Below, piece by piece: positions 1,231-20,268 of a stretch of 64,000 nucleotides of DNA (its first letter is position 1; each line of letters starts with the position of its first letter). The stretch is taken from assembly GCF_900445235.1 (NCBI RefSeq), contig NZ_UFSM01000001.1:1689501-1753500 (forward strand), in the 5' to 3' direction. The notes under the pieces are model-generated. The model worked only from the letters and a program-made list of their open reading frames with translations. It was not told the origin of the DNA and did not search any database. Origin of the DNA: Aminobacter aminovorans (GTDB taxonomy: Bacteria; Pseudomonadota; Alphaproteobacteria; Rhizobiales; Rhizobiaceae). A program made the position numbers and the translations under genes.

Positions 1231-1334
1231 ACGCATCGGCCCGAAAATCGGCACCGATTTTCGGTAAGCACGATGCGTAGGTTCAAGGTGTTAGAGCGTC
1301 CTTTGCGCGTCCGAATGGACGCGCGGCGCTCTAA
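1231..1334. repeat. Rhizobiales twin-hairpin intergenic repeat, copy 1
   Basis: Two adjacent hairpins. The first has arms ACGCATCG (1231-1238) and CGATGCGT (1271-1278) enclosing a CGAAAATCGG / CCGATTTTCG inner stem. The second has arms TTAGAGCG (1291-1298) and CGCTCTAA (1327-1334) enclosing GCGCGTCC / GGACGCGC. The same two modules occur in reverse order and orientation at 16139-16242. It fills the promoter region between the regulator and the BKACE gene and resembles the short palindromic repeats common in rhizobial genomes. Confidence 0.8.
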
Positions 1335-1356
1335 GTTTCGTATAGGAGGAACTGCG

Positions 1357-2274
1357 ATGCCGCTCGAAATGAACCGCGAGGTTTTCATTACCTGTGCCGT
1401 GACCGGGTCCGGCGGCACGCAGGATCGCAGCCATCTGGTGCCGCGTTCGCCCAAGGAGATTGCCGACTCGGCCATCGAGGCGGCCAAGGCCGGTGCTGCC
1501 ATCGTCCACTGCCATGTCCGCGATCCCGAGACCGGCAAGCCGCGCCGCGATATCCATCTTTACCGCGAGGTGACCGAGCGCATCCGCGCTGCCAATGTCG
1601 ACGTGGTGCTGAACCTGACCGCCGGCATGGGCGGCGACATGGTGTTTGGCGGTGTCGAGACCCCGCTGCCGCTGCAGCAAGCCGGCACCGACATGGGCGG
1701 CGCCACCAACCGCGTCGAGCATGTGCGCCAGTGCCTGCCGGAGATCTGTACGCTCGACTGCGGCACGATGAACTTCGCCGAGGCCGACTATGTCATGACC
1801 AACACGCCGGGCATGTTGCGCGCCATGGGCGGCATGATGACCGCGATGGGCGTGAAGCCTGAGATCGAGGCCTTCGACACCGGCCATCTGTGGTTCGCCA
1901 AGCAGTTGGTGGAGGAGGGCGTGCTGGCGCCCGACGCGCTGGTGCAACTGTGCATGGGCGTGCCGTGGGGCGCGCCCGACGACCTCAACACCTTCATGGC
2001 GATGGTCAACAACGTGCCGAAGAGCTGGACCTTCTCGGCCTTCTCGCTCGGCCGCAACCAGATGGCCTATGCGGCGGCCGCGGTGCTGGCCGGCGGCAAT
2101 GTGCGCGTCGGCCTCGAGGACAATCTCTGGCTCGACAAGGGCGTACTCGCCACCAATGCGCAACTGGTCGAAAAGGCCGTCACCGTCGTCGAGACCCTCG
2201 GCGCGCGGGTGATCGGGCCGCAAGAGGTGCGCAAGAAGCTCAACCTCGTCAAGCGCGCGCCGCTGGCAGCATAA
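1357..2274 (+). CDS. cdhC: BKACE beta-keto acid cleavage enzyme, 3-dehydrocarnitine cleavage (CdhC-like)
   Basis: 305 residues of the BKACE (DUF849) family. These Zn enzymes condense a beta-keto acid with acetyl-CoA and split it into a new CoA ester and acetoacetate. Family hallmarks are the metal-binding HCHVRDP motif near residue 48, the NLTAGMGGD loop, and the GLEDN motif near the C terminus. The ATG at 1357 is chosen over upstream in-frame starts because it follows a strong ribosome site (AGGAGG at 1344-1349), and the longer frame would run through the intergenic repeat. The next gene is carnitine dehydrogenase, whose product 3-dehydrocarnitine is the CdhC substrate, giving glycine betaine-CoA plus acetoacetate. 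The carnitine assignment is by context; other BKACE substrates are possible. Confidence 0.88.
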   Translation: MPLEMNREVFITCAVTGSGGTQDRSHLVPRSPKEIADSAIEAAKAGAAIVHCHVRDPETGKPRRDIHLYREVTERIRAANVDVVLNLTAGMGGDMVFGGVETPLPLQQAGTDMGGATNRVEHVRQCLPEICTLDCGTMNFAEADYVMTNTPGMLRAMGGMMTAMGVKPEIEAFDTGHLWFAKQLVEEGVLAPDALVQLCMGVPWGAPDDLNTFMAMVNNVPKSWTFSAFSLGRNQMAYAAAAVLAGGNVRVGLEDNLWLDKGVLATNAQLVEKAVTVVETLGARVIGPQEVRKKLNLVKRAPLAA

Positions 2275-2305
2275 CGAGATTTCAGAACGCCGGGAGGGCT
2301 TTGTG

Positions 2306-3403
2306 ATGAGCACAATTTCAAAGGCGGCCGCCATCGGCGGCGGGGTGATCGGCGCGGGCTGGGTGGCGCGGCTGCTGCTCAACGGCATCGACGTGTCGAT
2401 CTTCGATCCCGATCCGGAGGCGTCGCGCAAAGTCGGCGAAGTGATGAAGGGTGCGCGCCGCGCCTACAAGCAGATGGTACCAGGTGGACTGCCTAAGGAA
2501 GGCAAGCTGACCTTCGCCAAGACCATCGCCGAAGCGGTCGCCGATGCCGACTTCATCCAGGAAAGCGTGCCCGAACGGCTCGACCTCAAGCACAAGGTGC
2601 TGGCCGAGATCGATCTTCATGCGCCAGCCAACGCGATCATCGGTTCGTCCACTTCGGGCATCAAGCCGTCTGACATGCAGGTGGCGATGAAGAAGCATCC
2701 TGAAAGGCTGGTCGTCGGCCATCCGTTCAACCCGGTCTACCTCTTGCCCATCGTCGAGATCGTCGGAGGCGCGCAGACCTTCCCCGAGGCGATAGAGGTC
2801 GCCAAGGAGATCTATTCGTCGATCGGCATGAAGCCTGTCGTCATCCGCAAGGAGATCGAGGCCTTCGTCGGCGACCGCCTGCTCGAGGCGGCATGGCGCG
2901 AGGCGCTGTGGCTGATCAAGGACGGCATCTGCTCGGTCGAGGAACTTGACGACATCATGCGCTACGGCTTCGGCCTGCGCTGGGCCCAGATGGGTATGTT
3001 CCAGGTCTATCGGGTCGCCGGCGGAGAGGCCGGCATGCGCCACTTCATGGCTCAGTTCGGGCCGTGCCTGAAATGGCCGTGGACCAAGCTGATGGACGTG
3101 CCGGAGTTCAATGACGAGCTTGTCGACCTGATCGCCACCCAGTCGGACGAACAATCCGACAAATGGTCGATCCGCGAGCTGGAAAAGATCCGCGACGACA
3201 ATCTCGTTGCGATCATGGATGCGCTGTCGAAGCAGAACAAAGGCAAGGGCTGGGGCGCTGGTGCGCTCTACAAGGACTACACGAAACAGCTCGCCGCCCA
3301 GGCCAAGCCCAAGGTCTCGAAGGCCGCAGAAAAGGCCAAGGCGAGCAAGCCGGTGAAGAAGGCAGCAAAGGCTGCGAAGAAAGTTGCTGGCAAGAAGGGC
3401 TGA
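2306..3403 (+). CDS. cdhA: L-carnitine 3-dehydrogenase with lysine-rich C-terminal tail
   Basis: A 365-residue NAD-dependent 3-hydroxyacyl-CoA dehydrogenase-fold protein. Residues 8-20 carry the GGGVIGAGW dinucleotide loop; FIQESVPERLDLK, GSSTSGIKPSD and VGHPFNPVYLLPIVEIVGG match carnitine dehydrogenases (CdhA/LcdH) closely. It oxidises L-carnitine to 3-dehydrocarnitine, feeding the BKACE enzyme just upstream. The start is ATG 2306, seven bases after GGGAGGG; a GTG at 2303 is also possible. The dehydrogenase ends near residue 333 and is followed by a 32-residue tail with 13 lysines and many alanines, similar to histone H1-like tails. Some rhizobial homologues instead end in a thioesterase domain, which is absent here. 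Confidence 0.92.
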   Translation: MSTISKAAAIGGGVIGAGWVARLLLNGIDVSIFDPDPEASRKVGEVMKGARRAYKQMVPGGLPKEGKLTFAKTIAEAVADADFIQESVPERLDLKHKVLAEIDLHAPANAIIGSSTSGIKPSDMQVAMKKHPERLVVGHPFNPVYLLPIVEIVGGAQTFPEAIEVAKEIYSSIGMKPVVIRKEIEAFVGDRLLEAAWREALWLIKDGICSVEELDDIMRYGFGLRWAQMGMFQVYRVAGGEAGMRHFMAQFGPCLKWPWTKLMDVPEFNDELVDLIATQSDEQSDKWSIRELEKIRDDNLVAIMDALSKQNKGKGWGAGALYKDYTKQLAAQAKPKVSKAAEKAKASKPVKKAAKAAKKVAGKKG

Positions 3404-3423
3404 GGCGATGCGCGTGGAGGTCG

Positions 3424-3608
3424 ACCCCCACTCCGGTTTGCTGCGCAAACCACCTCTCCCACGTTCGACGGGGGAGAGGAAGGGTGCGACGTCTTCGGCC
3501 GCCGCCCCTCTTCACCAACTATCAGGCAAGGGCACCCGGCGCCCCGCTGGCCTTCCTCTCCCTCGGGCAGGGGGAGAGGTGGCGCGCGTAGCGCGACGGA
3601 GTGGGGGT
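3424..3608. repeat. Intergenic inverted-repeat element (CCCCACTCCGG...CGGAGTGGGG)
   Basis: The gap between the carnitine dehydrogenase and acyl-CoA dehydrogenase genes holds facing copies of one sequence. The left unit (3424-3480) reads CCCCCACTCCGG then ACCTCTCCC then GGGGGAGAGGAAGG. The right unit (3551-3608) reads CCTTCCTCTCCC then GGGGGAGAGGT then CGGAGTGGGGG. Short open frames run through it in several directions, but none has a protein-like sequence. It splits the catabolic genes by about 260 bases and may separate transcription units or act at the RNA level. Confidence 0.75.
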
Positions 3609-3665
3609 GATTCCGCTCCTCTGGCGTGCAAGTCCGGTAACCCGCTGCAATCAAGGGTCTAAGCC

Positions 3666-4829
3666 ATGCATTTCGGTCTGTCCGAGGAACAACAGCTGAT
3701 CGTCGACACGACGCGCGCCTTCGTCGAGAATGAGCTCTATCCGCATGAGCTGGAGGTTGAACGATCAGGCCATCTCCGTCGCGAGCTGATCGAAGAGATC
3801 AAGGCAAAGGCGATATCAGCCGGGCTCTATGCCGCCAACATGCCGGCGGATGTCGGAGGTGCCGGGCTCGATACGCTGACCTGGCTACTCTATGAGAAAG
3901 AGCTCGGCCGCGCCAACTACGCACTGCACTGGACCTGCGTGGCGCGCCCGTCCAACATCCTGCTGGCCGGCACGCCCGAGCAGCGCGAGAAGTATCTGTT
4001 TCCCTGCATCCGCGGCGAAAAGTCGGACTGTCTCGCAATGACCGAGCCGGGGGCGGGTTCCGACCTCCGCGGCATGAAGGCGTCTGCTGTCCAGGATGGC
4101 AGCGACTGGGTGCTCAACGGGACCAAGCATTTCATCTCCCACGCCGACATCGCCGATTTCGCCATCGTCTTCATGGCTTCGGGCGAGGAAGAGACACCAC
4201 GCGGCAAGCGCAAGAAGATCACCGCGTTTTTCGTCGACAAGGGTGCGCCTGGCTTTACCGTGCGCGACGGCTACCGCAACGTCTCGCATCGCGGCTACAC
4301 CAATTCGGTGCTGGAGTTCGATGACTGCCGGCTGCCGGCAAGCCAGGTTCTTGGCGAGGTGCACAAGGGCTTCGAGGTTGCCAACAGCTGGCTCGGCGCC
4401 ACCCGCCTGCAGGTCGGCGCGACCTGCCTCGGCCGTGCCGAACGCGCGCTCGGCCATGCCATCGACTATGCCGCGCAGCGCCAGCAGTTCGGCCAGCAGA
4501 TCGGCAAGTTCCAGGGCGTGTCGTTCAAGCTTGCCGACATGGCGACCGAGCTCAAGGCGGCCGAGCTGATGGTGATGGAGGCTGGCTGGAAATACGACCA
4601 GGGCACGGTCACCGACCAGGACATGGCGATGGCCAAGCTCAAGGCCACCGAGATGCTGGCCTTCGTTGCCGACGAGGCGATCCAGATCCATGGCGGCATG
4701 GGCCTGATGGACGACCTGCCGCTCGAGCGCATCTGGCGCGATGCGCGCGTCGAACGCATCTGGGAAGGCACCTCGGAAATCCAGCGCCACATCATTTCGC
4801 GCGCGTTACTGAGGGCGGTGGGCGGATGA
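3666..4829 (+). CDS. Acyl-CoA dehydrogenase, candidate gamma-butyrobetainyl-CoA dehydrogenase
   Basis: 387 residues with the full acyl-CoA dehydrogenase fold: N-terminal helical domain, FAD-contacting beta domain (AMTEPGAGSDLRG; FISHADIADF), and C-terminal domain with QQFGQQIGKFQG, IQIHGGMG and WEGTSEIQR. Glu367 in WEGTSEI sits at the catalytic-base position of this family. It would introduce an alpha-beta double bond into an acyl-CoA and pass electrons to ETF. Its place between carnitine dehydrogenase and the CoA ligase/CaiD genes suggests gamma-butyrobetainyl-CoA to crotonobetainyl-CoA. The enzyme class is seen in the sequence; the substrate is inferred. Confidence 0.9.
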   Translation: MHFGLSEEQQLIVDTTRAFVENELYPHELEVERSGHLRRELIEEIKAKAISAGLYAANMPADVGGAGLDTLTWLLYEKELGRANYALHWTCVARPSNILLAGTPEQREKYLFPCIRGEKSDCLAMTEPGAGSDLRGMKASAVQDGSDWVLNGTKHFISHADIADFAIVFMASGEEETPRGKRKKITAFFVDKGAPGFTVRDGYRNVSHRGYTNSVLEFDDCRLPASQVLGEVHKGFEVANSWLGATRLQVGATCLGRAERALGHAIDYAAQRQQFGQQIGKFQGVSFKLADMATELKAAELMVMEAGWKYDQGTVTDQDMAMAKLKATEMLAFVADEAIQIHGGMGLMDDLPLERIWRDARVERIWEGTSEIQRHIISRALLRAVGG

Positions 4830-4911
4830 GCTTGGCGCTGCGCAGGCGGCAATCCGGTTTGACCTTGCTCCTTGTGGGCAAGGTGGCCCGCAGGGCCGGG
4901 TGGAGGTGGAA

Positions 4912-7029
4912 ATGAGTAGCTCGACTTTGACCACCTCCACCCCGAAGCCTGGCGGCCGTCTCGAACGCCTGCTGCGCCCCAGATCCATCGCAGTGTTCGG
5001 CGGTTCGCAGGCGGCGGCCGTGGTCAGGCAATGCCTGAAGATGGGCTTTGCCGGCGACATCTGGCCGGTGCACCCGACAAAGGCCGAGGTCGAGGGCATC
5101 AGAACCTTCCGCTCGGTGGCCGAACTGCCGGCAGCCCCCGATGCCGCCTTTGTCGGTGTCAACCGCTTCCTGACCATCGAAGTGATCGCAGCGCTTGCCG
5201 AGCGCGGGGCGGGCGGGGCGATCTGCTTTGCCTCCGGCTTCCTCGAGGCCGGCCACGACGATGCCGATGGCGAGCGGCTGCAGGCCGAGTTGGTGGCGGC
5301 CGCCGGTGCGATGCCTGTCATCGGACCCAATTGCTACGGCCTGATCAACTATGCCGACGGCGCGCTTTTGTGGCCAGACCAGCACGGCGGCCAGAGGCTC
5401 GCACCTGATCGGCGCGGCGTTGCCATCATCACGCAATCCTCCAACATCGCCTGCAACCTGACGATGCAGAAGCGCGGCCTGCCGGTCGCCTTCCTGATGA
5501 CGGCCGGCAACCAGGCGCAGACCGGGCTCTCCGAGATGGCGCTGGGCCTGATCGAGGACGAGCGCGTCTCCTGCCTTGGCCTGCATATCGAAGGTTTCGA
5601 CACCGTCGACGGCTTCGAGAAACTGGCGGCGCGGGCGCGCGAACTGAACAAGCCGATCGTCGCCATGAAGGTCGGCCGCTCCGAGCAGGCGCGCAAGGCG
5701 ACGATCTCGCACACGGCGTCGCTGGCTGGCTCGGATGCCGCCTCCGATGCCTTCCTCAAACGCCTGGGCATTGCCCGTGTCGACACCATCCCGTCCCTGC
5801 TCGAAACGCTGAAGCTGTTGCACGCTGTCGGTCCTCTGCCGGGCTTCACGCTATCGTCGATGAGCTGTTCGGGCGGCGAGGCCTCCGTCATGGCCGACAG
5901 CGCCGAAGGCCGGCGGCTGAGCTTTCCGGCGCTTACGCCCGAGCACTATGCGCGGATAAAATCGACGCTCGGCGCCTTCGTTGCGGTCGCCAATCCGCTC
6001 GACTACCACACCTTCATCTGGAACGACGAGCCGGCGATGACGGCCACTTTCACCGCCATGGCATCAGGCGGTTTCGACCTCAACATGCTGGTGCTCGATT
6101 TCCCGCGTAACGACCGCTGCTCGGATGCCGACTGGTGGCCGACCGTCAGCGCCTTCGAGGCGGCGCTGAAAGCCAATGGCGCGTCTGGTGCGGTGGTTGC
6201 ATCGATGTCGGAGAACCTGACCGAAGAACACGCCGCCGATCTGTTCGCGCGTGGCATCGTGCCGTTGCAGGGCATAGCGGAGGCGATGGACGCGGCGGAG
6301 GCTGCGGCATTCATTGGCGAGGCGTTGGCGAGGCCCGTTGCGGCGGCGGTGGGGCGTGACACTGATGCACCCCGCTCCGGCAACAGGCCAGAGGGGGGCA
6401 AGGCGACGCTCGACGAAGCCGCAGCCAAATCCCTGCTGCGCGACGCGGGTCTCGCCGTGCCGGTCGGCCGTCGCGCCGCAAGCGTCGCGGAGGCCATAGC
6501 TGTGGCGGAGGCGCTGGGCTATCCCGTTGCGCTCAAGGCGCTCGGCGTCGCCCACAAGAGCGAACTCGGTGCCGTCAGGCTCGACCTGCGGACCGGCGAG
6601 GAGGTCGGCGCGGCGGCTTCAGCCCTGTTGCCACTCGGCTTCGGCCTCTATGTCGAAAAGATGGTCTCGGGCGGCGTGGCCGAGCTGATCGTCGGTGTCA
6701 CCAGCGATCCGCTGTTCGGGCCTGTGATGACCATCGGTACCGGCGGCGTGCTGGTCGAACTGCTCAAGGACAGCGCCACGCTGCTGCTGCCCGCCGCGCG
6801 CGGCGAGGTCGAGGCGGCGCTCAAGGGGCTGAAGATGTATCCGTTGCTCCAAGGCTATCGCGGCCGCGCCAGCGCGGATGTCGGTGCCGCGGTCGATGCG
6901 ATCATCGCCATATCAGGCTTTGCGTTGCATCATGCCGACGCAATCGAGGAACTCGATATCAATCCGCTGATCGTCTGCGGCGAAGGGCAGGGCGCCTGGA
7001 TTGCGGATGCGCTGCTGGTGACGGCCTAG
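4912..7029 (+). CDS. Single-chain ADP-forming acyl-CoA ligase (acetate-CoA ligase family)
   Basis: 705 residues in the order CoA-binding Rossmann domain (about 15-130), succinyl-CoA-synthetase-like ligase domains (about 140-460), and an ATP-grasp domain at the C terminus (about 480-705; GYPVALKALGVAHKSELGAV, GTGGVLVELLKD, ELDINPLIV). These enzymes make acyl-CoA from acid, CoA and ATP with release of ADP and phosphate. The start ATG 4912 has GGAGG five bases upstream; an in-frame GTG lies at 4900. It lies 12 bases before the CaiD-like gene, so it probably activates the same substrate (gamma-butyrobetaine, crotonobetaine or carnitine), in place of the AMP-forming CaiC of enterobacteria. Confidence 0.87.
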   Translation: MSSSTLTTSTPKPGGRLERLLRPRSIAVFGGSQAAAVVRQCLKMGFAGDIWPVHPTKAEVEGIRTFRSVAELPAAPDAAFVGVNRFLTIEVIAALAERGAGGAICFASGFLEAGHDDADGERLQAELVAAAGAMPVIGPNCYGLINYADGALLWPDQHGGQRLAPDRRGVAIITQSSNIACNLTMQKRGLPVAFLMTAGNQAQTGLSEMALGLIEDERVSCLGLHIEGFDTVDGFEKLAARARELNKPIVAMKVGRSEQARKATISHTASLAGSDAASDAFLKRLGIARVDTIPSLLETLKLLHAVGPLPGFTLSSMSCSGGEASVMADSAEGRRLSFPALTPEHYARIKSTLGAFVAVANPLDYHTFIWNDEPAMTATFTAMASGGFDLNMLVLDFPRNDRCSDADWWPTVSAFEAALKANGASGAVVASMSENLTEEHAADLFARGIVPLQGIAEAMDAAEAAAFIGEALARPVAAAVGRDTDAPRSGNRPEGGKATLDEAAAKSLLRDAGLAVPVGRRAASVAEAIAVAEALGYPVALKALGVAHKSELGAVRLDLRTGEEVGAAASALLPLGFGLYVEKMVSGGVAELIVGVTSDPLFGPVMTIGTGGVLVELLKDSATLLLPAARGEVEAALKGLKMYPLLQGYRGRASADVGAAVDAIIAISGFALHHADAIEELDINPLIVCGEGQGAWIADALLVTA

Positions 7030-7041
7030 AGGGAGAGAAGA

Positions 7042-7824
7042 ATGTCCGATGTCGTGAAAACACGTCGCGAGGGTGCGATCCTCGAAGTCACGCTCGACCG
7101 GCCCAAGGCCAATGCCATCGACCTCGCTACATCGCGGCTCTTGGGCGAGACCTTCAAGGCCTTCCGCGACGATGACGGCCTGCGCATCGCCATCGTCAAG
7201 ACCGCGGGGGAGAAGTTCTTCTCGGCCGGCTGGGACCTCAAGGCGGCTGCCAATGGCGATGCGGTCGATGGCGATTACGGCGTCGGCGGCTTCGGCGGGC
7301 TGCAGGAACTGCGCGACCTCAACAAGCCTGTCATCGCCTGCGTCAACGGCATGGCTGTCGGCGGCGGCTTCGAGCTGGCGCTGTCCTGCGACCTGATCTA
7401 CGCCTCCGAGCATTCGAGCTTTGCCTTGCCGGAGATCAAGGCCGGCACGCTGGCCGACGCTGCCACCATCAAGCTGCCCAAGCGCATTCCCTACCATGTG
7501 GCGATGGACCTTCTGCTGACCGGGCGCTGGATGGACGTGGCCGAGGCGCATCGCTGGGGCCTGGTCAACGAGGTGCTGCCGGCCGACGGGCTCGAGGACC
7601 GTGTATGGGAGATCGCCCGCCTGCTTGCCGGCGGTCCACCGCTGGTCTTCGCCGCCATCAAGGAGGTGGCGCGCGCGGCCGAGGGAACCGGCTTCCAGGA
7701 AACGATGAACCGCATCACCAAGCGCCAATTCCCAACGGTCGACGAACTCTACGCCTCGGAGGACAATCTCGAAGGCTTCAAGGCGTTCGCCGAAAAGCGC
7801 GATCCGGTGTGGAAGGGGAAGTAG
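7042..7824 (+). CDS. caiD: Enoyl-CoA hydratase family, CaiD-like carnitinyl-CoA dehydratase
   Basis: 260 residues of the crotonase fold. It follows enterobacterial CaiD nearly end to end: ILEVTLDRPKANAID, GEKFFSAGWDLKAAA, GGGFELALSCDLI, SFALPEIKAGTL and the C-terminal FAEKRDPVWKGK. The FSAGWDLKAA and MAVGGGFELA segments form the CoA-oxyanion hole. The reaction is reversible hydration of crotonobetainyl-CoA to L-carnitinyl-CoA. It is tightly spaced with the ligase (12 bases) and the esterase (9 bases), indicating one operon. In CaiD a Glu follows FALPEAKLGIVP; here the segment reads FALPEIKAGTLAD, so the active-site loop differs somewhat. Confidence 0.88.
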   Translation: MSDVVKTRREGAILEVTLDRPKANAIDLATSRLLGETFKAFRDDDGLRIAIVKTAGEKFFSAGWDLKAAANGDAVDGDYGVGGFGGLQELRDLNKPVIACVNGMAVGGGFELALSCDLIYASEHSSFALPEIKAGTLADAATIKLPKRIPYHVAMDLLLTGRWMDVAEAHRWGLVNEVLPADGLEDRVWEIARLLAGGPPLVFAAIKEVARAAEGTGFQETMNRITKRQFPTVDELYASEDNLEGFKAFAEKRDPVWKGK

Positions 7825-7833
7825 GCCGGCTCG

Positions 7834-8775
7834 ATGACCAACTACGCCAAACTCATCGACGCCGAGACCTGGGCCTTCATCGAGCGGACCAATTCCTACT
7901 ATCCGCCTGATACCATCGACTACACGATCGCCCAGCAGCGCGAAATCTACGACCGCATGTGCCGCGAGTTTTTCGCCGGTTATCCCGAGGGCGTGTCGGC
8001 CGAAACGACTGCCATCGTGGCGCCAGGGCGCGACGTGCCGATCCGCGTCTATCGCCTCGCCGGCAAGGCGCCGGAGGCCGTGGTGCTCTATTTTCATGGT
8101 GGGGGCTTCATCCTGGGTGGGCTCGACAGCCATGACGACGTTTGTGCCGAACTCTGCGGTCGCACCGGCTACGAGGTCGTTTCGGTCGACTACCGGCTGG
8201 CGCCCGAGCACAAGCATCCGGCTGCCTTCGACGATGCCATGGCCGCTTTCGAATGGGCGGTGGCGAGATACAGTCAGCCCATCATGCTTGCCGGCGACAG
8301 CGCCGGCGGCAACATCGCGGCTGCCGCCAGCCACGCGACGCGCGGGCACGCAAGGCGTCCGGTCGGGCAATTGCTGGTCTATCCCGGCCTTGGCGGCGAC
8401 CGCAGCCAAGGCTCCTATGTCAGCCACGCCGAGGCGCCGATGCTGACCATGCGTGATCTCGAATTCTACAAGCACATCCGCAGCGGCGGCGAGGACCGCA
8501 CCGGTGACATCACGCTGTCGCCGCTTGCCGACGCCGACTTCGCCAATCTGCCGCCGACAGTCATCATCACGGCCGAATGCGACCCGCTGTCGTCAGACGG
8601 CGAGGCCTATGGCCAGCGTATCGTCGCGGCAGGCGGCAAGGCGTTCTGGCACGAGGAGCCGGGGCTGGTGCACGGCTACCTGAGGGCTCGCCACACCGTC
8701 ACCCGCGCCCGCCAAAGCTTCACCCACATCGTCGATGCGGCGGCCGCGCTGGGGCGAGGCGAGTGGGTGTGGTGA
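7834..8775 (+). CDS. Alpha/beta hydrolase, hormone-sensitive-lipase type esterase
   Basis: 313 residues. The oxyanion motif HGGGF is at residues 88-92 and the nucleophile Ser156 sits in GDSAGG; Asp250 (ECDPL) and His280 (GLVHGY) complete the triad. This is the HSL/group IV esterase pattern. There is no signal peptide, so it is cytoplasmic. As the last gene of the carnitine-type operon it could hydrolyse acylcarnitines or act as a thioesterase releasing carnitine from carnitinyl-CoA before the dehydrogenase step. The family and triad are seen; the substrate is inferred. Confidence 0.85.
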   Translation: MTNYAKLIDAETWAFIERTNSYYPPDTIDYTIAQQREIYDRMCREFFAGYPEGVSAETTAIVAPGRDVPIRVYRLAGKAPEAVVLYFHGGGFILGGLDSHDDVCAELCGRTGYEVVSVDYRLAPEHKHPAAFDDAMAAFEWAVARYSQPIMLAGDSAGGNIAAAASHATRGHARRPVGQLLVYPGLGGDRSQGSYVSHAEAPMLTMRDLEFYKHIRSGGEDRTGDITLSPLADADFANLPPTVIITAECDPLSSDGEAYGQRIVAAGGKAFWHEEPGLVHGYLRARHTVTRARQSFTHIVDAAAALGRGEWVW

Positions 8776-8924: not shown

Positions 8925-10583
8925 TTAATTCCCGGCGCTTGCCATCCTGCGTCCGCCGATTGCCTTTTCCAGCCAGCCGATCTCCATCTCAGGCACCGAC
9001 GACAGCAGCAGGTCGGTGTAATCGTCGAAGGGCGGCTTCAGCACGTCCGATTTCGGCCCGTAGCGGACCATCTCGCCGCGATACATGACAGCGATGGAGT
9101 CGGCGATGGACTTCACCGTCGCCAAATCGTGGGTGATGAACAGATAGGCGACACCTTCCTCGGCCTGTAGCCCGAGCAGCAGCTTGAGGATGCCGTTGGC
9201 GACCAGCGGATCGAGCGCGCTCGTCACCTCGTCGCAGATGATCAGTCTCGGTTTGGCGGCAAGCGCACGGGCAATGCAGACGCGTTGTTTCTGACCGCCG
9301 GAAAGCTCCGCCGGGTAGCGATCGATGAAACCGCGCCCCATCTCGATCTTGTCCAGCAGTTCGGCGACCCTGGTATCGCGCTCCTTGCCACCCATGCCGA
9401 AATAGAACTCCAGCGGACGGCCGATGATGGTGCCCACGGTCTGGCGTGGGTTCATTGCCACATCGGCCATCTGGTAGATCATCTGCAGTTCGCGCAGGTC
9501 GTCGCGGCTGCGGTCGGCGAGGCGGTTGCCGAGCGTGCGTCCGGCAAAGGTGATGCTGCCTTCTTCGGGCGGCAAAAGGCCGGTTATGGCGCGGGCCAGC
9601 GTCGACTTGCCCGAACCGGACTCGCCCACGACGGCGAGCGTCTGACCGGGCAGGATGTCGACCGAGACGTTCTTGAGCACCTTGATCTTGCCGCCGCCAT
9701 AGGCGGCCGTCACGTTCCGGACCGAAAGGAACGGCGCGGCGCCGGGCTTCTTTTCCTCGTGCTCGATCTCATGCACGGAGACCAGCGCCGAGGTGTATTC
9801 CTGCCGCGGCTCCTTGATGATCTGGCGCGTTCCGCCCCACTCGACCAGCTTGCCATGGCGCAGCACCATGATCTCGTCAGAGACCTGGGCGACGACGGCG
9901 AGGTCGTGACTGATGTAGAGCGCGGCCACACCTGTATCGCGGATCGCGTCCTTGATGGCGGCGAGCACGTCGATCTGGGTGGTGACGTCGAGGGCGGTCG
10001 TCGGTTCGTCGAAGACGATCAGGTCGGGCTCGGAGCACAAGGCCATGGCCGTCATGACGCGCTGCAACTGGCCGCCCGAGACCTGGTGGGGGAAGCGCTT
10101 GCCGATGTTCTCGGGATCGGGAAGGCTGAGTTTCTTGAACAGCGCCACGGCGCGCCGTTCCGCCTCGGCGCGGCTCGCCACGCCGTGCAGGATCGAGGCT
10201 TCGACGACCTGGTCCATCAGCCGGTGCGCCGGGTTGAAGGCGGCCGCCGCCGACTGCGCGACATAGCAGACCTCGCGCCCTCGCAAAGCGCGGATGCCTT
10301 GCGTGCCGCCTTTGCGGATGTCGCGGCCGTTGAGCATGATCTCGCCGCCGGTGATCTTCACGCCACCGCGGCCATAGGCCATGGAGGACAAGCCGATTGT
10401 CGACTTGCCGGCGCCGGATTCGCCGATCAGGCCGAGTACCTTGCCTTTCTCGAGCGTCAGCGACACGTCGTGCACGAGCGTTACCGTGCGCGGCGCTTCG
10501 CCGGGCGGGTAGACCTTGGCCTCGATCCTGAGGTTGCGGATGTCGAGCAGCGGTCCGGAACCATGAACGGGTGCCTTAGCCAT
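8925..10583 (-). CDS. Peptide-type ABC transporter, fused double ATPase (DppD-DppF-like)
   Basis: 552 residues with two complete ABC ATPase halves. Half one has GESGAGKST, VSGGQLQRVM and LIVFDEPTTALD; half two has GESGSGKST, LSGGQKQRVCIARAL and LIICDEVTSALD. Such fusions power PepT-family importers (dipeptides, oligopeptides and other family-5 ligands). The start ATG 10583 follows GGGAGGG by seven bases and overlaps the upstream permease gene by eight bases; a GTG six bases earlier is less likely. It is the last gene of the binding protein - permease - permease - ATPase operon, so the transporter is complete. Confidence 0.93.
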   Translation of the reverse strand: MAKAPVHGSGPLLDIRNLRIEAKVYPPGEAPRTVTLVHDVSLTLEKGKVLGLIGESGAGKSTIGLSSMAYGRGGVKITGGEIMLNGRDIRKGGTQGIRALRGREVCYVAQSAAAAFNPAHRLMDQVVEASILHGVASRAEAERRAVALFKKLSLPDPENIGKRFPHQVSGGQLQRVMTAMALCSEPDLIVFDEPTTALDVTTQIDVLAAIKDAIRDTGVAALYISHDLAVVAQVSDEIMVLRHGKLVEWGGTRQIIKEPRQEYTSALVSVHEIEHEEKKPGAAPFLSVRNVTAAYGGGKIKVLKNVSVDILPGQTLAVVGESGSGKSTLARAITGLLPPEEGSITFAGRTLGNRLADRSRDDLRELQMIYQMADVAMNPRQTVGTIIGRPLEFYFGMGGKERDTRVAELLDKIEMGRGFIDRYPAELSGGQKQRVCIARALAAKPRLIICDEVTSALDPLVANGILKLLLGLQAEEGVAYLFITHDLATVKSIADSIAVMYRGEMVRYGPKSDVLKPPFDDYTDLLLSSVPEMEIGWLEKAIGGRRMASAGN

Positions 10584-11406
10584 TGCCACGCCCTCCCTTG
10601 AGATCGGTGGTGCGGTTGAGCACCCAGTCGGCGACGAGGTTGACGGAGATGGCGAGCGCTGCGATCGCGGCGGCCGGGATCAGTGCGGCCGGGATGCCGA
10701 AGACGATGCCGTCCTTGTTTTCCTTGACCATGCCACCCCAGTCGGCATCTGGCGGTTGCACGCCGAGGCCAAGGAAGGACAGTGCCGACAGGAACAGCAC
10801 GGCATAGATGAAGCGCAGGCCGAGTTCGGAGATCAGCGGCGACAGGGCATTGGGCAAGATCTCGCGGAAAATGATCCAGCCCTTGCCTTCGCCGCGCAGC
10901 TTGGCCGCCTCGACGAAATCCATGACGTTGATATCGACGGCTACCGCCCGCGACAGGCGATAGACGCGGGTGGCGTCGAGGATGCCCATGACCAGGATCA
11001 GCGTCACCACTGTCGACGGCAACACCGACAGCACGACGAGTGCGAAGATCAGCGTCGGGATTGCCATCAAGAGATCGACGAAGCGCGACATGCCGGTGTC
11101 GAGCCAGCCGCCGACGACGGCTGCGGTGAAGCCGAGGATCGCGCCGAGCGAAAACGACAGTGCGGTTGCCATCACGGCGATGAAGATCGTCGTGCGCGCA
11201 CCGAAGATCATGCGCGAGAGCAGGTCGCGGCCAAGATTGTCGGTGCCGAGCAGGAACTGCGACGACATTGGTGCCCAGACGTCGCCAACGATCTCGCCCA
11301 GGCCGTAGGGTGCGATCAGCGGCGCGAAGATCGCCGCGATCAGGAACAATGCGGTCAGTACCAGCCCGATCGCGGCGCCGAGTGGAATATTCTTCAGGTC
11401 AAGCAT
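10576..11406 (-). CDS. ABC transporter permease, DppC-like
   Basis: 276 residues, an inner-membrane permease of the DppC type. An N-terminal transmembrane helix (about 10-32) is followed by a periplasmic stretch with SQFLLGTDNLGRDLLSR, the DppC signature, and then five further helices with the cytoplasmic EAA loop (EAAKLRGEGKGWIIFREILP). It pairs with the DppB-like gene nine bases upstream and overlaps the fused ATPase gene by eight bases. Confidence 0.92.
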   Translation of the reverse strand: MLDLKNIPLGAAIGLVLTALFLIAAIFAPLIAPYGLGEIVGDVWAPMSSQFLLGTDNLGRDLLSRMIFGARTTIFIAVMATALSFSLGAILGFTAAVVGGWLDTGMSRFVDLLMAIPTLIFALVVLSVLPSTVVTLILVMGILDATRVYRLSRAVAVDINVMDFVEAAKLRGEGKGWIIFREILPNALSPLISELGLRFIYAVLFLSALSFLGLGVQPPDADWGGMVKENKDGIVFGIPAALIPAAAIAALAISVNLVADWVLNRTTDLKGGRGNG

Positions 11407-11415
11407 GGCGCGCCC

Positions 11416-12375
11416 TCACTTCGGATGCCTGAGGCGCGGATTGGCCACGATGGCTGCAATGTCGGCGATGATGTTGAGGCCGATATAGACGGCAGCGAAG
11501 ATCAGCCCGACCGCCTGCACCACCGGCACGTCGCGCTTGGCGACATGATCGACCAGATATTGCCCCATGCCGGGATAGACGAAGATCACCTCGATGACGA
11601 CGACGCCGACGATGAGGAAGGCGAGGTTGAGCATGACGACGTTGATCACAGGGGCGATCGCATTGGGGAAGGCGTGCTTGCGGATGATCTCGAAGGGCGA
11701 CAGGCCCTTGAGCTCGGCGGTCTCGATATAGGCAGACTGCATGACGTTGAGGATCGCCGCACGCGTCATGCGCATCATGTGGGCCAGCACCACAAGTGTC
11801 AGGGCCGTTGCCGGCAGGGCGATCGCCCGCATCCGCTCGAGGAACGGCATGCCGTCATAGACGGTGGAGATGCCGGGAAAGATCTGCCATTTCACCGCGA
11901 AGAAATAGACGAGCAGGTAGCCGACGAAGAACTCTGGCAGCGAGGTCGAGGCCAGCGCCAGGCCGGAGATGGTCTTGTCGATCCAGCCATTGCGGTAGCG
12001 CACGGCGAGCAGGCCGAGGATGATGGCCAGCGGGATCGACACGATCGCCGCCCAGAAGGCGAGGAACAGCGTGTTCCACAGCCGCCCGCCGATGGCTGTG
12101 GCGATATCCTGCCGGCTCGAAAGTGCGGTGCCGAGGTCGCCGGTCAAGACGCCGCCGAGCCAGCGGAAATACCTGACATAGGCAGGCGCGTTGAGACCAA
12201 GTTCCTCGCGCAGGTTGGCGAGCGCCTGCGGTGTGGCCGACTGGCCGAGAATGGATTGGGCGACGTCGCCGGGCAGGATCTGGGTGCCGGCGAAGATCAG
12301 GACCGAAACGGCCAGGAGCAGCAGAAGGCCCAGCGCAATGCGCTGGGCTATCAGTTTCAGGATCGGATTGGACAT
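11416..12375 (-). CDS. ABC transporter permease, DppB-like
   Basis: 319 residues. The N-terminal helix (about 10-32) precedes ILPGDVAQSILG and then the BPD_transp_1 domain with about five helices and the EAA-type loop (ETAELKGLSPFEIIRKHAFP). This is the DppB/OppB partner of the DppC-like permease. It follows the binding-protein gene by 16 bases, giving the usual operon order. Confidence 0.92.
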   Translation of the reverse strand: MSNPILKLIAQRIALGLLLLLAVSVLIFAGTQILPGDVAQSILGQSATPQALANLREELGLNAPAYVRYFRWLGGVLTGDLGTALSSRQDIATAIGGRLWNTLFLAFWAAIVSIPLAIILGLLAVRYRNGWIDKTISGLALASTSLPEFFVGYLLVYFFAVKWQIFPGISTVYDGMPFLERMRAIALPATALTLVVLAHMMRMTRAAILNVMQSAYIETAELKGLSPFEIIRKHAFPNAIAPVINVVMLNLAFLIVGVVVIEVIFVYPGMGQYLVDHVAKRDVPVVQAVGLIFAAVYIGLNIIADIAAIVANPRLRHPK

Positions 12376-12391
12376 GCGCTCAATGCCTTTG

Positions 12392-13975
12392 TCAGGCGTT
12401 GAGCCAGCACTTGGACAGTGCGTAGCCGCCCATCATCTCCTGGTTGCCGTCATCGACCCAACCGCCGACCTTGGCGCTGGTGGCGTCGATGAAGTCGTTG
12501 AACATCGGCGTGATGACGCCGCCTTCGTCGCGCACGATCTGGCCCATGTCGGCATAGATCTTCTTGCGCTTCTCCGGATCGAGTTCCGAACGGGCGGCAA
12601 ACAGCATCTTGTCGAAGTCCTCGCGCTGGAAGCGCGTGTCGTTCCACTCGGCCTTCGAATAATAGGCGGTCGAATACATCTGGTCCTGGGTCGGGCGGCC
12701 GCCCCAGTAGGAGGCCGAGAAGGGCTGCTTGTTCCAGACTTCCGACCAGTAGCCGTCGCCGGGTTCGCGCTTGACCTCGAGCGTGATACCCGCCTTGGCG
12801 GCACTCTGCTGGTAGAGCTGGGCGGCGTCGACGGCACCGGGGAAGGCGACGTCGGAGGTGCGCAGCAACACCGAACCGGAATGTCCCGACTTCTTGTAGT
12901 GGAAGGCGGCTTTTTCCGGATCGAACTTGCGCTGTTCCATTTCGGTGAACAGCGGATAGGCCTTGTTGATCGGCGTGTCGTTTCCGACCGAGCCATATCC
13001 CATCAGGATCTTCTGCAGCATCTCCTCGCGGTCGAGCGCATATTTCAACGCCAGCCGGAGATCGTTATTGTCGAAGGGAGCGGTGTTGCAGTGGGCAATG
13101 AAGACATAGTGGCCGCGGCCGGCGACGTTGCGGATGACCACGCCGGGCACGCGCTTGATCAACTCGACGATCTTCGGCTCGACGCGGTTGATGATGTCGA
13201 CCTGGCCGCCCTGGAGTGCCGATGTACGCGCCGTGGCATCATTGATGACGATGATCTCGATCTGGTCGGCAAAGCCGCGGTCGTCGCGCCAGTAGTTGGC
13301 GAACTTCTCACCGCCGAGGCGCACGCCGGCTTCGTTGACCGTGACCTTGTAGGGGCCTGTGCCGATGCCGGCATCTGGCTTGTCCTTGCCGCCATTGGGC
13401 TGGATCATCAGATGGTAGTCGTCGAGCAGGAACGGTAGGTCGGCGTTGGCGTCCTTGAGTTCGAAGACGACGTTCTGGCCGTCGGCCTTGACCGAGGCGA
13501 TGCCGCCCATCAGGCCGAGCGCGCCGGACTTTGCCTTCTCGTCGGAGTGGCGCTCGATGGTGGCGACGACGTCTGCCGGCGTCATCTCCTGGCCGTTGTG
13601 GAACTGCACGCCCTTGCGGATCTTGAAGGTCCAGGTCTTGGCGTCGTCGGAAGCCCCCCACTCCTCGGCCAGCGCCGGCTTGGGCTCGCCCTCAGCCGAG
13701 ATCTGCACCAACTGCTCGCCCCACTGGCGACCGAAGAAATAGGGCACCTGGCTCGACCAGGATGCAGGGTCGAGGCTGTCGGTGGCTGCACCACCCTGCA
13801 TGCCGGCGCGCAGGATGCCGCCCTTGACGGGCCCTTCGGCCCTGGCGGCGCTGGCCAGCAACGAGTTTGCGAAAGTTGCCGCGACGCCCAGGGCCGCAGC
13901 GCGGCCCAGGAAATCGCGACGGTTCAATTTGCCCGCAGCGACTCGGCGGCTCAGATATTCCAGTTCATTCGACAT
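12392..13975 (-). CDS. ABC transporter substrate-binding protein, family 5
   Basis: 527 residues. The N terminus carries a twin-arginine signal (NRRDFLGRAAALG) and a cleavage region near ASAARA, so it is exported folded through Tat. The body is a family-5 solute-binding protein (WTFKIRKGVQFHNGQEMTPADVVATI; GTGPYKV; ALKYALDREEML). The family takes up peptides, but also opines, nickel and quaternary amines, so the ligand is open; the neighbouring carnitine-type genes make a betaine or acylcarnitine ligand possible. It is the first gene of the transporter operon; a perfect inverted repeat lies about 85 bases upstream. Confidence 0.92.
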   Translation of the reverse strand: MSNELEYLSRRVAAGKLNRRDFLGRAAALGVAATFANSLLASAARAEGPVKGGILRAGMQGGAATDSLDPASWSSQVPYFFGRQWGEQLVQISAEGEPKPALAEEWGASDDAKTWTFKIRKGVQFHNGQEMTPADVVATIERHSDEKAKSGALGLMGGIASVKADGQNVVFELKDANADLPFLLDDYHLMIQPNGGKDKPDAGIGTGPYKVTVNEAGVRLGGEKFANYWRDDRGFADQIEIIVINDATARTSALQGGQVDIINRVEPKIVELIKRVPGVVIRNVAGRGHYVFIAHCNTAPFDNNDLRLALKYALDREEMLQKILMGYGSVGNDTPINKAYPLFTEMEQRKFDPEKAAFHYKKSGHSGSVLLRTSDVAFPGAVDAAQLYQQSAAKAGITLEVKREPGDGYWSEVWNKQPFSASYWGGRPTQDQMYSTAYYSKAEWNDTRFQREDFDKMLFAARSELDPEKRKKIYADMGQIVRDEGGVITPMFNDFIDATSAKVGGWVDDGNQEMMGGYALSKCWLNA

Positions 13976-16909: not shown

Positions 16910-17422
16910 TCAGAAGCCTTCCGGGAGGACGATTTCATAAGGGTGCGAGAAATGGAATTCCTCGAGATTGGGGCCTGTGCCGCCCCGGTCGACGACGACG
17001 AAGTCCTGGTTCTCGCCGATCGGCGTCAGCACCCCATGCCAGAGGTTGCGTGGGTAGTTGACGCCCTGACCGGGCGAACTGATGAAGGCATATGGCTCGC
17101 CCGGACCGTCGCCGATGTCGTGGCAGACGACGACGAGATAAGGGCGCTGGGTGAGTGGAATGAAGGCCTGGCTACCAAAGGGATGGCGTTCGACCATCGA
17201 GAGCTTCAGCGGGAAATCGTAGGGCGTTCCCTTGAAGATGTTGATGATGACGTGGCCATCGGGGCCGGCAGCCTCGGCGCGGGCGAGCGCATGGTAGCGC
17301 TCGCATTTGCCAGCGTTGATCGGGTAGTGCGTGTCGCAGTTGGTGTCGATCACCTCGCCGAACTCGGCGAAGTTCTCCCGCGTCAGCGGCTTGGCGACGA
17401 TCCGCTTCATCTCACCCGACAT
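16910..17422 (-). CDS. allA: Ureidoglycolate lyase
   Basis: 170 residues of the AllA family, a cupin-like fold that splits (S)-ureidoglycolate to glyoxylate and urea. Diagnostic segments are FGEVIDT, HYPINAGKCERYH, MVERHPFGSQAFIPL, and NYPRNLWHGVLTPIG. The start ATG 17422 is used; a longer frame overlapping the upstream gene has no homology. It sits 11 bases after the ureidoglycine aminohydrolase gene, which supplies its substrate, and three bases before the deaminase gene. Confidence 0.93.
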   Translation of the reverse strand: MSGEMKRIVAKPLTRENFAEFGEVIDTNCDTHYPINAGKCERYHALARAEAAGPDGHVIINIFKGTPYDFPLKLSMVERHPFGSQAFIPLTQRPYLVVVCHDIGDGPGEPYAFISSPGQGVNYPRNLWHGVLTPIGENQDFVVVDRGGTGPNLEEFHFSHPYEIVLPEGF

Positions 17423-17433
17423 GGCTTCAGTCC

Positions 17434-18279
17434 TCAGCGGCGGCGCGTGGCGTTGAAGGCGCCGAGCTGCATGTGGCGGTTGACGTCCTTGTAGAGCAGG
17501 TAGCGGAACTTGCCGGGACCACCGGCATAGCAGGCCTGCGGGCAGAAGGCGCGCAGCCACATGAAGTCGCCTGCTTCAACCTCGACCCAGTCGTTATTCA
17601 GCCGGTAGACCGCCTTGCCTTCGAGCACGTAGAGGCCGTGCTCCATGACGTGGGTCTCGGGGAACGGGATGATGCCGCCCGGTTCGAAGGTCACGATCGT
17701 GACATGCATGTCGTGGCGCAGGTCGTTGGGATCGACGAAGCGTGTGGTCGCCCAGGTGCCGTTGGTGTCGGGCATCGGGTTGGGTGCGATGTCGTTGTCG
17801 TTGAGGAACAGCGGCTCGGGCGCGTCGAGGCCTTCGACATATTCATAGGCCTTGCGGATCCAGTGGAAACGCGTGGTCTCCGAGCCTGCGTTGCGCATCG
17901 TCCAGGCGCTTGCCGGCGGCAGGTAGGCATAGCCGCCCGGCGTCAGCACATGGCTTTTGCCCGCAATCGTGACCGTCACTTCGCCTTCGACGACGAAGAA
18001 CACACCCTCGGCGCCCGCGTCCGGCTCCGGCCGATCGCTGCCGCCGCCAGGTTGCACTTCCATGATGTATTGCGAGAAGGTCTCGGCGAAGCCCGAGAGC
18101 GGTCGCGCAATGACCCAGACCCGCGTCTTGTCCCAGTGGGGCAGGAAGCTGGTGACGATGTCCGAAAACTCGCGCTTCGGGATCACCGCATAGGCTTCGG
18201 TGAAGACGGCGCGGTCGGTGATCAGGTCTGTCTGGGGCGGCAAGCCGCCTTTCGGAGCGTAGTAGGAGCGGTTGGCCAT
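17434..18279 (-). CDS. allE: (S)-ureidoglycine aminohydrolase (bicupin)
   Basis: 281 residues with two cupin domains (about 45-125 and 185-270). The second cupin has ETHVMEHGLYVLEGKAVYRL, supplying His/Glu ligands for Mn. It hydrolyses (S)-ureidoglycine to (S)-ureidoglycolate and ammonia, between allantoate amidohydrolase and AllA. The family is YlbA/AllE (plant UGLYAH). It lies six bases downstream of the puuE-uraD fusion. The allantoate amidohydrolase that should precede it is not in this window. Confidence 0.92.
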   Translation of the reverse strand: MANRSYYAPKGGLPPQTDLITDRAVFTEAYAVIPKREFSDIVTSFLPHWDKTRVWVIARPLSGFAETFSQYIMEVQPGGGSDRPEPDAGAEGVFFVVEGEVTVTIAGKSHVLTPGGYAYLPPASAWTMRNAGSETTRFHWIRKAYEYVEGLDAPEPLFLNDNDIAPNPMPDTNGTWATTRFVDPNDLRHDMHVTIVTFEPGGIIPFPETHVMEHGLYVLEGKAVYRLNNDWVEVEAGDFMWLRAFCPQACYAGGPGKFRYLLYKDVNRHMQLGAFNATRRR

Positions 18280-18285
18280 GGTCTC

Positions 18286-19719: not shown

Positions 19720-19899
19720 GTTCCCTCAAAACCGGATTCTTGCCGGGCACTTGAGCAGAATAGCGAAAGGTGCGTCAGACATTCCCTCGAAAAATTTTGA
19801 AAGTCTTTTTGTAGTGCTCTGCTCGACCACACCTTATGCAATGGCCTTAAATGGCGCAAAATCTATATCGATGGCGTTCAGCGCCAATAGGGAGAGCGA

Positions 19900-20265
19900 A
19901 TGACAAAGGCCGAAGGCGGACGCCTCACCACCCATGTCCTTGATACTGCTACCGGAAAGCCTGCCGAAGGTCTGGCGATCTCGCTGTTTCGCATCGACGG
20001 CGACGCGCGCACGCTGCTGAAGAAGGTCACCACCAATTCCGACGGCCGCTGCGATGCGCCGGTTCTGGCCGGCGACGAGTTCGAGACAGGCGAGTACGAG
20101 CTGATCTTCGCAGCCGGCGATTATCTCCGCGGCCTGGGCATCGAGCTGCCGAAGCCGGCCTTCCTCGACATCGTGCCGATCCGCTTTGGCATGGCCGAGC
20201 GCACGCATTATCATGTGCCTCTGTTGATCTCACCCTTCGGTTATTCCACCTATAGGGGGAGCTGA
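19900..20265 (+). CDS. uraH: 5-hydroxyisourate hydrolase (transthyretin-like)
   Basis: 121 residues. N-terminal [14 protein letters not shown] and the C-terminal YRGS tetrapeptide are the HIU-hydrolase signatures that separate it from transthyretin; [19 protein letters not shown] closes the active site. It hydrolyses 5-hydroxyisourate, the product of urate oxidase, to OHCU. A GGGAG site stands before the ATG. It is divergent from puuE-uraD across 180 bases and three bases before xdhA, so it begins the xdh operon. Confidence 0.96.
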
Positions 20266-20268
20266 ACG

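Follow-up and report, generated by a model that had tools for sequence, protein, structure and literature searches.

A carnitine locus of Aminobacter aminovorans with a predicted CoA-ester route from gamma-butyrobetaine

Why do genes for the degradation of free carnitine share a locus with genes of CoA-ester chemistry? We examined this question for Aminobacter aminovorans in a window of 64,000 nucleotides (C1:1689501-1753500 of the 5.9 Mb genome; positions below are those of the window). The locus consists of seven genes, a divergent CdhR-like regulator and the genes for CdhC, CdhA, an acyl-CoA dehydrogenase, an ADP-forming acyl-CoA ligase, a CaiD-like hydratase and an esterase of the HSL family. 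A preliminary description of the sequence had proposed that gamma-butyrobetaine or crotonobetaine is activated to a CoA ester, dehydrogenated and hydrated, that the esterase then frees carnitine, and that CdhA and CdhC degrade it. The six enzyme genes were indeed found together where it had placed them, with intact open reading frames (ORFs) on one strand, and successive genes from CdhC to the esterase are spaced by 28, 262, 70, 12 and 9 bases. The locus is very probably an aerobic catabolic island for quaternary-ammonium compounds, which would convert gamma-butyrobetaine to carnitine via CoA esters and then degrade the carnitine. Thus the outline of the route held, with the gene set conserved in 72 of 80 related loci, and the esterase step probably did not.

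Gene identity and conserved linkage

CdhA (2303-3403, +), an L-carnitine 3-dehydrogenase, passed the carnitine 3-dehydrogenase model NF005716 with 597.8 bits against a cut-off of 592. The match covers positions 1-347 of the 495 model positions, and the ORF has 366 aa; therefore a fused thioesterase is absent. The C-terminal thioesterase domain of the rhizobial form of CdhA was not found in this ORF, and the last 46 residues (3260-3403) are rich in lysine and alanine (61% K+A) where other forms carry that domain. The second-best CdhA match within the same genome had 32% identity. The adjoining gene encodes CdhC (1351-2274, +; PF05853, 321 bits; alternative in-frame start at 1273), a BKACE protein predicted to cleave 3-dehydrocarnitine with acetyl-CoA.

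The short-chain acyl-CoA dehydrogenase (3666-4829, +; PF00441/02770/02771) is a predicted gamma-butyrobetainyl-CoA dehydrogenase. Butyryl- and short-chain acyl-CoA dehydrogenases are among its closest relatives in the PDB; its E367, in WEGTSE, corresponds in the alignment to the glutamate of IYEGTSE in 5ol2. The ligase (4900-7029, +; PF13380+PF13607+PF13549) has the three-domain ADP-forming layout of CoA_binding_2, Succ_CoA_lig and ATP-grasp_5. It contains the phosphohistidine H271 in ISHTAS and the motif NPLDYHTFIW, and is predicted to be a BcoAB-like gamma-butyrobetaine/crotonobetaine:CoA ligase. The hydratase (7042-7824, +) found its best NCBIfam model in crotonobetainyl-CoA hydratase, NF002936, with 303.3 bits, followed by the generic crotonase family with 213 bits. 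It keeps both crotonase glutamates, E111 and E131, in the alignment with 3r0o, and is predicted to hydrate crotonobetainyl-CoA.

As the preliminary description had suggested, the gene set was looked for in other genomes. The scan of named genomes covered the best 80 of at least 578 confirmed ligase loci, a sample biased to close relatives. Among these 80, CdhC was present in 72, CdhA in 73, the dehydrogenase in 77 and CaiD in 78; all of them together with the ligase on one strand were found in 72. For this count each gene had to show at least 45% identity and lie on the ligase strand within the fetched stretch, and a Bradyrhizobium locus (L149), whose matches were weak and scattered, was left out. 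Several of the eight incomplete loci are short contigs. Thus the set travels as a unit and the locus is not a chance neighbourhood. A CdhR-like gene accompanies it in 72 of the 80 loci, and DppB, DppC and DppDF (at least 45% identity) in 40. The loci span Aminobacter, Mesorhizobium, Phyllobacterium, Rhizobium, Ensifer/Sinorhizobium, Shinella and others; complete ones also occur in three metagenome-assembled genomes titled as gammaproteobacterial (L158, L163, L196) and one titled Proteobacteria (L157).

In the order-wide search the ligase was detected at E 1e-80 in 23 of 101 genomes, and 33 of the 34 matches outside the own genome were examined, one fragment being left out. Nineteen of these loci (L083-L101) carry the DYHT motif, and 15 hold CdhC and CdhA in the stretch; the pair is missing in L088, L090 (a contig of only 4.9 kb), L093 and L097. 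A second survey was centred on CdhA, which was found at E 1e-60 in 54 of 289 genomes of the class, and covered the 40 best-scoring places, excluding the own place and one at a contig end. Only seven of them had the ligase at 37% identity or above, and 13 had the dehydrogenase at no less than 55%; L050 contains part of a ligase, and the ligases of L055 and L070 are weaker matches of another type. The carnitine pair is therefore the wider unit, and the CoA module is an add-on of a subset.

The ligase and the proposed route

Nineteen relatives of the ligase, picked from loci with this ligase type, were aligned. H271, Y369, H370, T371 and W374 are invariant in all 19, and W412 is nearly so. The only PDB chain that aligned over ligase residues 27-697 in one stretch was DddX (7cm9), an ATP-dependent dimethylsulfoniopropionate lyase. 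According to docking and mutant data, DddX holds the sulfonium by cation-pi contacts of W391 and F435, and its base is probably E432 (PMC8163506). These three residues, in the order W391, F435 and E432, align with H370, W412 and D409 of the window ligase. Across the 43 ligase ORFs of the survey loci, window counted, NP[LF]DYHT occurs in 26, NPLDYTTPIW in nine (L102, L104-L111) and NP[LF]DFTAG in four (L112-L115); L061, L103, L055 and L070 carry still other versions. Motif distribution and DddX alignment together indicate that carnitine-linked ligases have their own signature where DddX holds its onium group, and the signature residues may bind the trimethylammonium group. The two enzymes share the ADP-forming superfamily, an onium acid as substrate (predicted for the window ligase) and the phosphohistidine. 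In contrast, the catalytic base E432 and W391 of DddX are replaced by D409 and H370, so no lyase activity is expected and a DddX-like lyase was ruled out.

The three nearest named ligase loci are from Aminobacter (84-85% identity). The closest named database ligases, at 92-93%, belong to Aminobacter lissarensis, A. carboxidus and Aminobacter sp., and the names given to the ligase are generic, for example acetate--CoA ligase family protein. Sinorhizobium/Ensifer ligases share 57-58% identity with the window ligase. Database proteins named Sinorhizobium meliloti are single-chain ligases of this family (687 aa). They share 89% identity with the Sinorhizobium ligase of L186, whose gene is flanked by those for the dehydrogenase and CaiD in a cluster of the same type. 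Four Sinorhizobium/Ensifer loci (L175, L186, L190, L191) show CdhR with the order CdhC-CdhA-thioesterase-dehydrogenase-ligase-CaiD-Dpp.

The same gene families serve the catabolism of carnitine and gamma-butyrobetaine in S. meliloti. There, SMc01638 is stated to oxidise carnitine and to convert betainyl-CoA to betaine, in a 2025 paper citing Bazire et al. 2019 (PMC12482172), SMc01639 is listed as an acyl-CoA dehydrogenase (PMC12542648), and SMc01642/3/4 are named a proline-betaine transporter (PMC3596328). The tags 01638, 01639 and 01642-4 fit the cluster order, so that ligase and CaiD would be 1640 and 1641. A 2021 paper describes the use of S. meliloti BcoAB with ATP and CoA to prepare gamma-butyrobetainyl-CoA (PMC8364193). 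Because of the single-chain relatives in S. meliloti, the order in the four loci and the fit of the tags, BcoAB likely belongs to this ligase family, which would strengthen the proposed use of an ADP-forming ligase. The bco gene names reportedly come from a Lonza patent.

In the route that we propose, betaines would be taken up by a Dpp-type transporter and activated by the ligase, via its phosphohistidine, to gamma-butyrobetainyl-CoA (or crotonobetainyl-CoA). The dehydrogenase would oxidise the C4 ester to crotonobetainyl-CoA, with electrons passing to electron-transfer flavoprotein, and the hydratase would form L-carnitinyl-CoA. Free L-carnitine would be obtained by a thioesterase in trans or by the ligase run backwards. 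CdhA would then convert carnitine to 3-dehydrocarnitine, from which CdhC would form betainyl-CoA and acetoacetate with acetyl-CoA. The esterase would feed the same point, carnitine, by hydrolysing short-chain O-acylcarnitines.

The core of this pathway is not new. For the Rhizobium/Agrobacterium-like strain HK4, a passage of a 2007 review describes a route from gamma-butyrobetaine to L-carnitine that resembles fatty acid oxidation, and degradation of carnitine through L-carnitine dehydrogenase (PMC2131755). The likeness to HK4 lies in these two features and is one of physiology. The preliminary description had regarded the combined pathway and the ligase use as inference alone; both the route (PMC2131755) and the ligase activity (PMC8364193) were already in print, the latter for S. 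meliloti enzymes.

It had also stated that the route avoids the 2-oxoglutarate-dependent butyrobetaine hydroxylase. The butyrobetaine dioxygenase model TIGR02409 gave no match in this genome at E 1e-5 and E 1e-20. The 14 control genomes of the E 1e-5 search gave no match either. At E 1e-20, 44 of 62 genomes matched, 15 of them over the cut-off, which shows that the search works. By a grouping made in this analysis, seven of the 25 examined genomes with a CdhA-ligase cluster were over the cut-off. Thus the statement applies to this genome and not in general: dioxygenase and ligase cluster are not alternatives across genomes, and the CoA route is not a general replacement of the dioxygenase.

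Several observations weigh against a CoA-ester route from gamma-butyrobetaine at this locus. The dehydrogenase is weak on the crotonobetainyl-CoA dehydrogenase (CaiA) model NF002885 (183.7 bits, cut-off 540), and the score of the hydratase on NF002936 lies below the cut-off of 500 bits. No dedicated carnitinyl-CoA thioesterase was identified. For HK4, Table 2 of the same review lists butyrobetaine hydroxylase (PMC2131755). The name BcoAB could denote two subunits, unlike the single-chain ligase found here. Finally, L088, L093 and L097 combine a ligase with the carnitine-type motif, the dehydrogenase and CaiD, while neither CdhA nor CdhC lies within the 20 kb fetched.

The esterase and the discharge of the CoA esters

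The esterase (7834-8775, +; PF07859, Abhydrolase_3) has the HSL motifs HGGG at 88 and GDSAG at 154. Its distribution was followed in a selection of 19 genomes, 12 of them already known to have an HSL gene at the carnitine locus; a match at E 1e-20 was obtained in 16. In all seven Rhizobium/Ensifer/Shinella genomes with a thioesterase-bearing CdhA, the best HSL of the whole genome adjoins the cluster; in three (L175, L186, L164) it lies just beyond the stretch first fetched, and the overlap was checked. An eighth thioesterase genome, Oricola (L188), gave no match better than 34%, and none was seen at the locus. No HSL match was obtained in three chosen genomes with neither HSL nor thioesterase at the locus (L140, L147, L179). 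The best HSL of G267, G165, G037 and G148 belongs to a carnitine locus that lacks the ligase. Such ligase-free loci with HSL are L035, L056, L057 and L072, and L035 and L072 also lack the dehydrogenase and CaiD.

Loci from other classes of the phylum were also surveyed, and 16 of 17 such hits were used (one 36% match was left out). All 16 have CdhC-CdhA-thioesterase without ligase, dehydrogenase and CaiD. In seven, HSL follows the thioesterase, six times directly and in L255 about 1.2 kb further on. This is the position of hocS, the last gene of the Pseudomonas aeruginosa operon caiX-cdhCAB-hocS, which is described as encoding short-chain acylcarnitine hydrolysis (PMC5806209). An HSL tree of 49 rows (42 different; midpoint root, long branches flagged) contains one group of 33 rows with support 99/97. 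This group unites all 24 carnitine-locus rows (17 different), all seven rows from the hocS position and two other rows; the 16 remaining rows are other genome copies. Because members of this clade occur at the hocS position and in carnitine loci irrespective of the presence of a ligase, the enzyme is probably better read as a HocS-like acylcarnitine esterase than as a carnitinyl-CoA thioesterase.

Carnitinyl-CoA and betainyl-CoA both need to be discharged, and this step is the gap in the pathway. A CdhB-type thioesterase, fused or separate, is present in 36 of 73 loci of the first survey, and in the window the scan of the remaining locus genes found no member of this family. Among the complete named clusters (72), the thioesterase is fused in 28 and separate in three, a same-strand HSL is present in 33, and in 11 none of the three was seen. 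Of these 11, L125 and L141 end just past CaiD, and the other nine have more than 8 kb beyond it. That HSL itself frees carnitine from carnitinyl-CoA, or betaine from betainyl-CoA, in place of the thioesterase missing from CdhA, seemed attractive since same-strand HSL and fused thioesterase never occur together in these clusters. However, the exclusion follows one clade, and three of the 33 HSL clusters, those of L148, L150 and L153 with Phyllobacterium in the title, contain a separate thioesterase homologue within the stretch as well. The pattern fails where both occur near the cluster, as in the seven Rhizobium/Ensifer/Shinella genomes, which keep a related HSL beside a fused thioesterase. 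HSL genes at carnitine loci lacking ligase and two stand-alone homologues of the thioesterase domain elsewhere in the window genome speak against it as well. We therefore gave up HSL as a stand-in for the thioesterase, a role that the preliminary description had assigned to it for carnitinyl-CoA, and consider that role unlikely.

At E 1e-10, the two stand-alone homologues (L203:4989-5468, minus strand, and L204:4945-5487, plus strand; 38% and 36% identity) matched only one NCBIfam model, that of the carnitine dehydrogenase, in its thioesterase part, and they may serve in trans. The one in L204 adjoins genes that by eye resemble an ABC transporter and a GMC oxidoreductase. ADP-forming ligases are generally reversible. 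It is thus conceivable, although we regard it as doubtful, that the ligase both activates gamma-butyrobetaine and discharges carnitinyl-CoA, perhaps also betainyl-CoA, with recovery of ATP and no need of a thioesterase. Such a double role would account for the ligase being the one CoA-charging enzyme retained in every complete cluster, whereas thioesterase and esterase vary. By eye, no link between ligase presence and thioesterase absence was seen in the survey loci. If true, one reversible ligase would replace the ligase and CoA-transferase pair of Escherichia coli.

The CoA module might also act on other substrates or in the other direction. HSL could free butyrate or other short acids from acylcarnitines, which ligase, dehydrogenase and crotonase would then oxidise as short-chain fatty acids. 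The hocS-position genes in the HSL clade, the PDB relatives of the dehydrogenase and the membership of the ligase in the acetate/hydroxybutyrate ligase superfamily fit this idea. However, S. meliloti BcoAB is reported to act on gamma-butyrobetaine (PMC8364193), and the hydratase scores well above the generic crotonase family as crotonobetainyl-CoA hydratase. Moreover, a same-strand esterase is missing from 39 of the 72 complete clusters (the 11 without esterase and thioesterase, two of them cut just after CaiD, included), and the module is absent from all 16 other-class loci, some of which carry the esterase. We consider this use of the module very unlikely. Still less probable is a reductive direction as in the Cai system of E. 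coli, in which carnitine would be activated and dehydrated and its reduction to gamma-butyrobetaine would serve as an electron sink. The E. coli system is anaerobic and reductive and uses an AMP-forming CaiC and the CoA-transferase CaiB. The three reaction types would be the same as those of CaiC, CaiD and CaiA. However, neither CaiC nor CaiB is found in the window locus (PF02515 matches, the CaiB type, lie elsewhere), the dehydrogenase is not CaiA by the curated model, and the module is linked to the oxidative CdhA and CdhC. Oxidative conversion of gamma-butyrobetaine to carnitine thus stays the preferred reading.

Related systems and neighbouring genes

With caiTABCDE of E. coli the locus shares a CaiD-like hydratase and an acyl-CoA dehydrogenase step. 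With caiX-cdhCAB-hocS of P. aeruginosa it has CdhR, CdhC, CdhA and an HSL at the hocS position in common; in contrast, ligase, dehydrogenase and CaiD, all present in the window, are found in none of the 16 examined loci of the Pseudomonas type. The Sinorhizobium/Ensifer loci have CdhA with a thioesterase and no esterase directly after CaiD, whereas the window has an unfused CdhA and HSL directly after CaiD. The bbu cluster of E. timonensis resembles the window in its substrate, gamma-butyrobetainyl-CoA, but is described as having class III CoA-transferases and BbuA, which eliminates trimethylamine (PMC8364193).

The CdhR-like regulator (197-1177, -) combines a DJ-1/PfpI domain with an AraC helix-turn-helix (PF01965, PF12833); the GbdR model scores 208.6 bits on it, below the cut-off of 480. 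Convergent to the enzyme genes lies a Dpp-type ABC transporter (8925-13975, -) with a DF fusion, C, B and an SBP_bac_5 protein (252 bits). It likely takes up quaternary-ammonium compounds and may be orthologous to SMc01642/3/4. Further along the window (16910-21750) are purine catabolism genes for ureidoglycolate lyase, a cupin protein, a xanthine-dehydrogenase-type FAD/2Fe-2S subunit and an OHCU decarboxylase fused to a polysaccharide-deacetylase-like domain.

Twenty surveyed loci (e.g. L063:10966-11739) contain a gene for an SDR dehydrogenase, often placed between those for CdhA and the acyl-CoA dehydrogenase; its role is perhaps in the use of D-carnitine or 3-hydroxybutyrate. A second, paralogous set was seen in L102 and L104-L111 (e.g. 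L105:8862-16000), the loci with the NPLDYTTPIW ligase, here at 37-43% identity. It includes a BKACE protein (51-53%) in nine of nine loci, a dehydrogenase (53-56%) in eight, a CdhA-like protein (37-41%) in seven and a CaiD-like protein in six. Several genomes with this set also hold the carnitine set (G355, G366, G306), and it may form a parallel pathway with a different onium or amino acid as substrate. The third ligase sub-type, NP[LF]DFTAG, lies beside an acyl-CoA dehydrogenase and, by eye, a TetR-like regulator, without CdhA and CdhC.

The analysis corrects the likely role of the esterase and narrows the pathway to one gap, the discharge of carnitinyl-CoA. The order CdhC-CdhA-dehydrogenase-ligase-CaiD together with the ligase motif NP[LF]DYHT[FY] provides a conserved signature by which aerobic use of gamma-butyrobetaine may be recognised. 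The route is relevant to industrial carnitine production and to how soil and plant-associated bacteria process a trimethylamine precursor.

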